In this document: positions 10,018 to 12,809 of the stretch, in pieces
How the letters are laid out: each line of letters opens with the position of its first letter
Numbering within the stretch: position 1 is the stretch's first letter
From: Candidatus Hydrogenedentota bacterium
GTDB lineage: Bacteria > Hydrogenedentota > Hydrogenedentia > Hydrogenedentales > JAGMZX01
Assembly (NCBI GenBank): GCA_029556545.1
Contig: JAKQEQ010000117.1
Location: 1 to 24,242 of the forward strand
Length of the DNA stretch: 24,242 bases
Direction: 5' to 3'
Notes under the pieces: generated by a model
Databases searched by the model: none
What the model saw: the letters and a program-made list of their open reading frames with translations, nothing else
What the model was told of the DNA's origin: nothing
Made by a program: the position numbers and the translations under genes

Positions 10018-11136
10018 TCACTGTGGCCAGGGCGCGAATTCGTACAAGGGCGGCGACGGGGCCGTTTCGGGCAGCACAGGTCGCGGCGGGGGAAGGCGTC
10101 CGCCGGTCTGCTCGTACCACTGCCGCCATTCGACGGGGTTCTCGCCGAATTCGAGCCCGGTAAGTCGCGCGAGTTGGCGCGCGGCTTCGTGCCGGGCGGG
10201 AAGGTGGTTTGCCAGCACGTGAATCAGGATGGGGAGCGACGTGTCCCCGGGCAATTCCGCGATGCGGCGCACGGCGTGTTCCTTCAGCCACAGTTCCTGT
10301 TCCGTCTCGCCGAGGGCGGCCCGGTGGAGCGCCTCGACGGCCTCGCGCGTTCCCAGCGTCGCCAAGGCGTCGAGCGCGACGCGGCGGACCTCGGGCGCGG
10401 GGTGGGACGCCACGCCGATCCAGAATCCCACATCTTGGGGCGCACGGCTTTTCACCAGCGCCTCGGCGCAGACCCGCGCAAGCACGAAGTCCGGGGACGC
10501 GGTCAGGCGCGCCAAGGTTGGGGCCGCTCTTGCGCTGCCCATGCCGCCGAGGGCGTATCCGGCGGCCCAACGCCGCTCGGAGGGGGCGGCGTCATCCTCG
10601 AGTACCTCGATAAGGGGACGTTCTATTACGTCCTGCATCTCGGGCAGGACCTGGTGGATCGTCTGCGCGCCCGGCGACAACGGATCGCGCAGCGCGTCCA
10701 GCACTTGTTCCGTAAGCGTCGCCACGTCAAGCCGGCCCAGGGCGCGCGCCGCCGCGGCGCGCACCGTGCGGTCCGGGTCTTCGAGCGCGGCCAGCAGGAG
10801 GTCGGGCGGGCCCGGCTCTGGCGTAGTAACCCACAACTCGACCGCCCGAACCCGCGTGGACGGCTCCGGGGCCGCGAACATGGCCCGGATCACGGCGTTG
10901 TCCGGCCCCGCGCCGCCGCGCAAATCGGATCCAGCAGCGGCGGCCTCGCCTCGCGGCCAGTGGATGCCGGATGGGCCGCTCAGTTCGTGAATGCGGGCAA
11001 CGGCCCCGCCAACGGCCCGCTGTTTCCAGGTGGCTGCGGGCGACTCGGTCTCCGGTGGCCCGGTCGGGGGCGTGTCGGCGAGTTCCGCCGGGAATTCGGC
11101 GAGCAGGCACAGCAGCAGGGGGGCGACACACGTCAT
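10018..11136 (-). CDS. Secreted HEAT-repeat protein, 372 aa
   Basis: ATG 11136 has a Shine-Dalgarno GGAGG with 10-base spacing. The N-terminus MTCVAPLLLCLLAEFPAELA is a probable Sec signal peptide without a basic n-region; the Cys at position 10 is not in a clear lipobox. From about residue 85 to 300 the chain is helical repeats of about 30 residues (DPDRTVRAAAARALGRLDV, SERRWAAGYALGGMG, APEVRRVALDALATLG, EHAVRRIAELPGD), which are HEAT/PBS-lyase-type. These build superhelical scaffolds for protein binding. The end (LTGLEFGENPVEWRQWYEQTGG) is the type that closes many HEAT-repeat proteins of environmental bacteria. It ends in a Pro-rich tail. No catalytic motif is visible. It stands alone between two non-coding stretches, so context gives no partner. 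Periplasmic location is inferred from the signal peptide. Confidence 0.85.
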   Translation of the reverse strand: MTCVAPLLLCLLAEFPAELADTPPTGPPETESPAATWKQRAVGGAVARIHELSGPSGIHWPRGEAAAAGSDLRGGAGPDNAVIRAMFAAPEPSTRVRAVELWVTTPEPGPPDLLLAALEDPDRTVRAAAARALGRLDVATLTEQVLDALRDPLSPGAQTIHQVLPEMQDVIERPLIEVLEDDAAPSERRWAAGYALGGMGSARAAPTLARLTASPDFVLARVCAEALVKSRAPQDVGFWIGVASHPAPEVRRVALDALATLGTREAVEALHRAALGETEQELWLKEHAVRRIAELPGDTSLPILIHVLANHLPARHEAARQLARLTGLEFGENPVEWRQWYEQTGGRLPPPRPVLPETAPSPPLYEFAPWPQ

Positions 11137-11399
11137 TCGAGTCGTCCTCCATATTCCCGAGTGCCCTGCTGTTCAAGCTTGTGGCAACGCATCGAAACTG
11201 TCCCGTTCATCCTTGTCTCGCGATGCTCATTCTCAGGCTTTCCGGGCCGGTTTTCAACATCGGGACCCCGCAGACGTGCGTGTTTCGACGCCCGAGGGCC
11301 TTCCCGTCGATGGAGATGTACCAGACCGTGAAACGAGTTTCGTCGTGTAACCTATTGTGGCTTAAGTGCTTACAATTGCTCCAAATTTTTTGCTGATGA

Positions 11400-11564
11400 C
11401 ACGGATATCTGGGAATAAGACTCCGAGAGGACATGTTTACTTTATTGCCGTCGGGTTGGTTACTCCCCCTAGCTGGCCCACGGTGCAGTCAGCAATGACT
11501 GGTTCCCACCACCGGCGAGTGCAAGAGGTAGTTCCCCCGCTACCTGCACTCGCCCCTCTTTTTT
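11400..11564 (+). ncRNA. Candidate small structured RNA ending at an intrinsic terminator
   Basis: The terminator at 11514-11564 works only on the plus strand, and no plus-strand gene lies upstream within the window. Just before it is a stem CAGTCA-GCAA-TGACTG (11486-11501) with a GNRA tetraloop, extended by GGTG (11482-11485) with CACC (11507-11510). This suggests a short transcript with at least two hairpins. The 5' end is uncertain; no convincing promoter was found, with TTGCTG (11390-11395) only a weak -35 candidate. I do not recognise SRP RNA, 6S RNA, tmRNA, RNase P RNA or a known riboswitch core here. Confidence 0.4.
11514..11564 (+). terminator. Strong Rho-independent terminator, plus strand
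   Basis: Stem GGCGAGTGCA (11514-11523) pairs with TGCACTCGCC (11545-11554). After a 3-base bulge it continues as GGTAG (11527-11531) with CTACC (11540-11544) around an 8-base loop. The stem is followed by CCTC and six T (11559-11564). On the opposite strand no T-run follows, so it is directional. It also insulates the promoter at 11644 from upstream transcription. Confidence 0.85.
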
Positions 11565-11643
11565 CAGGGGGCGTTAGCTGGTCGAATCCGCCTGCGGGAT
11601 GCCGTCCGTCCGCCCGGAAAATCGCTGTAAGAACAAGAGCCTA

Positions 11644-11672
11644 TTGACTTTCTACGCCTTGCACGCTATAAT
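11644..11672 (+). promoter_or_regulatory. Near-consensus sigma70 promoter for the isomerase-like gene
   Basis: TTGACT (11644-11649) and TATAAT (11667-11672) are separated by exactly 17 bases, one mismatch from consensus overall. Transcription would start near 11679, leaving about 150 bases of leader before ATG 11829. It may also serve hflX and the TPR gene downstream, since no terminator is visible between them. Confidence 0.85.
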
Positions 11673-11828: not shown

Positions 11829-12809
11829 ATGATGCCGAGATTTTCCGTTGGATTATGGATGTTTTCGGATACACCTGACCGTTATTGTTGGGAAGGGTAC
11901 CGGGACACGCCCAAATTGCAGGAACGCCTTGCGGCCGTCGCGAAGACCAAGGGCGTCCGGGCGGTCGAGATCGCGCAAACGGATGTGTCGCAAGAGTATC
12001 CGGTGAAAGAGATTAAGCGGTTACTCAAGGAATACAACCTCGCGTGCTCCGGGGTAAGCGCGACCTTGGTCCATGATCGCCGGTTCGCGCTTGGGGGGTT
12101 CGGCCATCAGCATCAGAAGACGCGCAACGCCGCCATAGACGAAGGACGGAAGGCGGTCGATATCGCGCGGCAGCTGGGCGCGACGGAGATCACGCTGCGC
12201 CTTTATACCGACGGCTTTGATTACTCGTTCCACGTGGACTACACAGCCCAGTGGAATACGGTGATTTCGAGCATTAAGACAATTGCGAAGTACGCCTCGC
12301 CGGACATCAACGTGGCGATAACCTATAAGCCGCGGGAGCCGCGGCAGTACCAGACGGTCGCGACGGTCGGCAAGGCGCTTTCCATGTGCCAGGAAATTGC
12401 CATGAAGAACGTGGGCGTGGCGCTGGATTTCAGCCACGCGATCATGTCTGGCGAGAATCCGGCCGAATCAATCGCGTTTCTGACGCGGGCGAGCAAGTTG
12501 TTTCAGGTCTATTTTAACGACAGTTACGCGGTGACTGACGACGCGCTGTTGCCCGCGAGCGTGCACATGTGGGAGGCGATGGAGGCGCTTTTCTATCTGA
12601 AAGCATCGAAATACAAGGGCTTCATCACCATCGATGTGCTGCCGCAGCGCATCGAGCCGATGCAGGCGATTCAGATCGCCCTCGGCAACTTGAGCATCTT
12701 ATGGAAGAAACTCGAGAAGCTCGATATCAACGAACTGCGCAAGGCGCAGCGGACGCTGGACGCGGTCGAAAGTCAGCGCATCATTCGCCGCGTCATGATG
12801 CAGGCGTAA
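11829..12809 (+). CDS. Xylose isomerase-like TIM-barrel protein with altered metal site, 326 aa
   Basis: Start at ATG 11829 (ATG 11832 is next to it), 7 bases after AAGGAG (11816-11821). The fold assignment to the sugar phosphate isomerase/epimerase family (AP_endonuc_2 barrel) rests on GATEITLRL, ITYKPREPRQYQTVATVGKA, VGVALDFSHAIMSGENPAES, VYFND and GFITIDVLP. Relatives as I recall them read IEYKxxEPR, LDxxHA, HLHFND and LDxxP, where Glu, Asp, His and a final acidic residue bind the divalent metal. Here Glu is Thr165, and the two His of HLH are Gln226 and Tyr228. Asp200, His203 and Asp269 remain. It may therefore be a non-metal or non-catalytic relative, or use other ligands. Promoter at 11644. 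The next gene, hflX, starts about 55 bases on, past a palindromic repeat. No sugar-pathway neighbour gives a substrate. Confidence 0.88.
   Translation: MMPRFSVGLWMFSDTPDRYCWEGYRDTPKLQERLAAVAKTKGVRAVEIAQTDVSQEYPVKEIKRLLKEYNLACSGVSATLVHDRRFALGGFGHQHQKTRNAAIDEGRKAVDIARQLGATEITLRLYTDGFDYSFHVDYTAQWNTVISSIKTIAKYASPDINVAITYKPREPRQYQTVATVGKALSMCQEIAMKNVGVALDFSHAIMSGENPAESIAFLTRASKLFQVYFNDSYAVTDDALLPASVHMWEAMEALFYLKASKYKGFITIDVLPQRIEPMQAIQIALGNLSILWKKLEKLDINELRKAQRTLDAVESQRIIRRVMMQA

Follow-up and report, generated by a model that had tools for sequence, protein, structure and literature searches.

Locus organisation and structure of the RNA

The window, that is the whole stretch of 24,242 nucleotides that was analysed, contains a divergent HEAT-repeat gene on the minus strand (10018-11136; PF13646, E 3.7e-22) and, on the plus strand, a gene encoding a xylose-isomerase-like TIM barrel (11832-12809; PF01261, Pfam E 8.7e-24). 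A preliminary description of this DNA had placed an orphan structured RNA at 11400-11564, with no plus-strand gene upstream. The latter point was confirmed, as every gene-sized open reading frame called between 249 and 11136 lies on the minus strand. The interval itself was only partly correct: a structured RNA is indeed present on the plus strand at about 11445-11564, while the first 35 bases or so correspond to a putative ECF-type promoter and a hairpin at 11447-11484 had been overlooked. The small RNA proper is about 120 nt long, with a predicted 5' end at approximately 11443-11447 and a 3' end in the U-tract.

Hairpin 1 (11447-11484) displays a CUCCCCC loop at 11463-11469 and is followed by hairpin 2 (11486-11501), whose sequence CAGUCA-GCAA-UGACUG corresponds to the GNRA-capped stem already described. 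The single-stranded linker GUUCCCACCACC (11502-11513) connects hairpin 2 to the intrinsic terminator hairpin (11514-11564), which bears an apical UCCCCC (UUCCCCC) loop and ends in a U-tract. The letters of the terminator were found exactly where the preliminary description had located them, with the 5' arm GGCGAGTGCA at 11514-11523, an AGA bulge at 11524-11526, the apical stem GGTAGT/GCTACC at 11527-11532/11539-11544 enclosing the TCCCCC loop (11533-11538), the 3' arm TGCACTCGCC at 11545-11554 and six T at 11559-11564. The RNA then exposes three C-rich motifs, i.e. the CUCCCCC loop, the linker and the UUCCCCC loop on the terminator hairpin.

Folding calculations on the 120-nt RNA (plus strand, 11446-11565) returned a minimum free energy of -53.8 kcal/mol, to be compared with a mean of -35.3 for dinucleotide shuffles, corresponding to a z value of -4.99 with none of 200 shuffles as good. 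When a slightly larger interval was considered, z was -3.2 on the plus strand and -1.2 on the minus strand.

The RNA had been matched by eye to no known class, and the Rfam searches agreed with this statement. No family was matched in the window at the Rfam 15 gathering scores, nothing meaningful emerged for the window at E<=10, and at E<=0.5 no family was found over the RNA part of eight homologous loci; moreover, ARAGORN returned no tRNA or tmRNA. Other candidates were examined and rejected. 6S RNA is, like the element under study, a conserved structured RNA across a phylum; however, the RF00013 match lies elsewhere in the same genome (G000:C39) and the structure differs too, 6S RNA being one long bulged hairpin and the Hydrogenedentota RNA three short ones. 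A hammerhead-like CUGAUGA at 11393-11399 was discarded because the relatives do not conserve it. A small protein was also rejected, the reading frame not being kept among homologs: the distance from linker to terminator arm varies so that all three frames are represented, and the single ATG in common disappears where hairpin 2 covaries, indicating that the RNA is not coding. We are almost certain that the locus holds a genuine, free-standing and undescribed RNA gene.

Conservation and distribution in Hydrogenedentota

When 60 related genomes were searched at the nucleotide level, the element was detected in 32, nearly always as a single copy. The alignment of 36 distinct homologs, window sequence included, was used to build a covariance model, R1, which matched the window at 11440-11567 with an E value of 4.9e-30, the window sequence itself being part of the model. 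Over 68 Hydrogenedentota genomes the model gave matches in 38, 36 of them strong and two weak; over half of the phylum's sequenced members possess the RNA gene. Truncated or diverged copies occur at the same place in three genomes; the copy in G054 is cut by the contig end, while those in G055 (one of the weak matches) and G047 are diverged and lie upstream of the same gene. The second weak match (G038) is located elsewhere than the usual place and may be due to chance. The element is missing from family f6 (4 genomes) and from most of family f10. As for copy number, three copies were counted in G060, two in G007 and one elsewhere.

An exact-pattern scan of 84,980 GTDB species genomes returned 30 stretches, 28 of which are titled Hydrogenedentota (or Hydrogenedentes); the remaining two, titled 'uncultured bacterium', correspond to Hydrogenedentota genomes, so that in this GTDB-wide scan the RNA pattern occurred only in Hydrogenedentota. 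The element defines a new RNA family, not represented in Rfam and retained across most families of its candidate phylum, which is known almost solely from metagenome assemblies.

The preliminary description had suggested a comparative search for compensatory changes, and these were clearly observed in the 36 distinct homologs. The 26 consensus pairs showed 96.5% of cells paired and two-sided changes at 12 pairs, values that none of the shuffled or slid versions of the alignment approached. A hairpin with a C-rich loop occurs at the hairpin 1 position in all 36 homologs, its own arms giving -19.8 kcal/mol against -9.3 kcal/mol for swapped arms, with none of 10,000 permutations coming near. In hairpin 2, 98.6% of cells are paired with two-sided changes at 3 pairs, and the loops GCAA, GAAA, GUAA or GCGA conform to GNRA in nearly all homologs. 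These data, together with the detection of the RNA by the covariance model in 38 of 68 genomes (two of the matches being weak), support the earlier idea of a small RNA lying between the HEAT-repeat gene and a promoter.

The least variable unpaired bases are C-rich: loop 1 contributes UCCCCC, the linker UUCCC-CCA and the terminator loop CCCCC, the UUCCC of the linker and the following CCA being invariant in 36/36 homologs. In the terminator, the apical stem covaries freely whereas eight of the ten basal pairs are identical across the 36 genomes, which indicates a constraint on the sequence and not on pairing alone.

Promoters and independence from the neighbouring genes

The putative promoter ahead of the RNA consists of a -35 element, GGGAAT, at 11411-11416 and a -10 element, GTT(T), at 11435-11438, located 18 nt after GGGAAT. 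GGAAT-N17-19-GTT was found upstream of the RNA in 30/35 homologs, with the length of the spacer kept at 17-19 and its sequence unconserved; the exact motif is missing in the other five. The motif matches the sigma-H promoter consensus of Corynebacterium, GGAAT-N18-19-GTT, and Streptomyces SigR is the ortholog of mycobacterial SigH (PMC10012870). In the same 30 homologs the distance between the motif and the predicted 5' end is the one expected for a member of a SigR/SigH regulon. As judged from sequence, the promoter is very probably of the ECF type, and we infer that transcription of the RNA depends on an ECF sigma factor. The position of the boxes (11411-11416 and 11435-11437, spacer 18) places the predicted start of the RNA near 11445 and not at 11400, and the segment 11411-11437 is more plausibly promoter than transcribed sequence. 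In three homologs (L010, L015, L047) the GTT box is fused with, or directly adjacent to, TATAAT/TATAGT preceded at about 16-17 nt by TAGACA or TAGACT, which suggests a shift to, or an overlap with, a housekeeping promoter.

In the genome to which the window belongs, GGAATA-N16-18-GTTT is enriched, with 27 sites where the reversed control gives 7; roughly half of the 27 are intergenic and ahead of a same-strand gene. A conserved co-regulon comprising mdh and NDH-2 was considered and rejected, since GGAAT-GTT boxes precede these genes in both species of the genus but the relatives mostly lack them; as the mdh boxes also overlap a TATAAT, no regulon is claimed beyond the RNA. The NDH-2-like gene (named by eye; L069 ~1501-1582, L232) has GGAATA-N18-GTTT upstream in both species, and its 5' leader holds a conserved TTCCGGGGGAA. 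This gene is a possible co-regulated target of the RNA.

The downstream gene has a promoter of its own. The sigma-70 promoter TTGACT-N17-TATAAT at 11644-11672 (plus strand) confirms the promoter mentioned in the preliminary description, is separate from the RNA, belongs to the next gene and is conserved: a TTGAC-TATAAT-type promoter was present in 28/28 gaps between RNA and gene, whereas 0.4 were expected from shuffles. The order RNA, TIM-barrel gene, HflX on the same strand is maintained in most homologs, in which the TIM-barrel gene lies next to the RNA, and the HEAT-repeat gene flanks the RNA in about half. Genomes devoid of the RNA retain the TIM-barrel gene together with its sigma-70 promoter and, conversely, at six loci (L031, L037, L041, L051, L053, L057) the RNA is present and the TIM-barrel gene is absent within several kb downstream. 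The separate promoter in every gap and the occurrence of the RNA without the gene indicate that the element is a free-standing small RNA and not a leader, the former observation being the reason for rejecting a leader of the TIM-barrel gene. On sequence grounds, we are dealing with a free-standing gene whose surroundings are conserved. At the sequence level, the analyses have shown the promoter, the three-hairpin RNA, the terminator and the independence from the downstream gene. A fluoride riboswitch (RF01734, 55 bits) was also detected at L020:197-256 on the minus strand, near the homologous locus of G015.

Proposed mode of action

We propose that this free-standing small-RNA gene is ancestral in Hydrogenedentota, or nearly so. 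It would be turned on, probably in response to redox or envelope stress, by an ECF sigma factor whose specificity resembles that of SigR/SigH. The RNA would act in trans without Hfq, its three C-rich single-stranded motifs pairing with G-rich sites on mRNAs and mostly blocking translation, as RoxS, RsaE, FsrA and LhrC do in Firmicutes. By analogy with these systems, C-rich base pairing in trans seems to us somewhat better than an even chance, and the complete picture of a stress-induced, Hfq-independent, trans-acting RNA that pairs through its C-rich motifs is likewise modestly favoured. The three exposed C runs are probably the means by which the RNA controls other genes.

This preference relies on the known small RNAs with C-rich motifs and on those known to be under ECF control. 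The working parts of RoxS and FsrA are C-rich motifs in loops and linkers (PMC8216469), LhrC is described as having UCCC-type motifs (PMC4132741), and RoxS has a role in central and redox metabolism (PMC8216469, PMC4409812). RoxS/RsaE, FsrA and LhrC are, like the Hydrogenedentota RNA, small free-standing RNAs with their own terminator and several exposed C-rich motifs in an Hfq-independent setting, and the conserved unpaired C-rich motifs typical of RoxS/RsaE were found here as well. However, the Hydrogenedentota RNA belongs to another phylum, shows no Rfam-level similarity to them, has an ECF-type promoter and differs in hairpin architecture and in its invariant terminator stem, and its pairing is putative. 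Small RNAs under direct ECF control include RybB and MicA (sigma-E, enterobacteria) and FoxJ (Fusobacterium) (PMC1804206, PMC11005410). The RNA described here resembles them in being placed directly under an ECF promoter, but this promoter is of the SigR/SigH type (GGAAT-GTT), Hfq was not found in the phylum, and they are not known to be related to it in sequence.

The Hfq model (PF17209) matched none of the 68 Hydrogenedentota genomes, while controls did match, suggesting that pairing would either need no helper or rely on a protein other than Hfq. Putative targets were searched as GGGGGAAC-N3-12-ATG against its control. The excess of GGGGGAAC ahead of ATG was no greater in genomes with the RNA (2.20x) than in genomes without it (2.02x in f10 and 1.83x in f6; p 0.32), and the C-rich motifs paired no more than expected with the start regions of both neighbouring genes. 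Neither approach brought up a target. Furthermore, simple loop pairing leaves unexplained the invariant sequence of the basal terminator stem.

It is chiefly this stem that makes protein binding the main rival explanation, according to which the RNA would behave like CsrB or 6S RNA, titrating or modulating a protein that recognises its C-rich loops or else the invariant stem of its terminator. The fixation of 8/10 basal pairs over 36 genomes next to a freely covarying apical stem, the occurrence of UUCCC or UCCCC three times in one RNA and the lack of both target enrichment and an Hfq match are in its favour; however, the conserved loop GGA motifs needed by CsrA sponges are not present, this genome and most of its relatives encode 6S RNA at another locus, and no candidate protein is linked to the RNA locus. 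We regard this explanation as unlikely, at roughly one chance in a few. More speculative still, and doubtful in our opinion, is a version in which the invariant terminator stem and its C-rich loop would form a recognition module for an RNA-binding protein replacing Hfq in Hydrogenedentota, making the element a phylum-specific riboregulator that acts by way of its terminator.

A different delimitation of the RNA, starting near 11410 and comprising GGAATA and GTTT, with GGGAAU/GUUCCC closing a multibranch structure, was drawn by RNAfold on the larger interval; it is very improbable, as the two boxes stay 17-19 apart around bases that are not conserved, UUCCC is invariant even where GGAAT is lost (L009, L016, L024), and GGAAT and UUCCC do not covary. 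Least probable of all is a leader acting in cis on the TIM-barrel/HflX genes as a riboswitch or attenuator, which would agree with the conserved same-strand order and with an RNA ending in a terminator but hardly with a sigma-70 promoter after that terminator in 28/28 cases, kept together with the gene where the RNA is missing, nor with an RNA persisting without the gene.

The new family would provide a concrete handle on stress regulation in Hydrogenedentota, where the Hfq model finds no homolog, since it combines a class of promoter with an RNA and with a C-rich pairing code that can be tested. COX1 was detected in 26/36 genomes with the RNA and in 10/32 without it (p 0.0014, uncorrected for phylogeny); the tendency of genomes without the RNA to lack the haem-copper oxidase hints at a role related to oxygen or redox.
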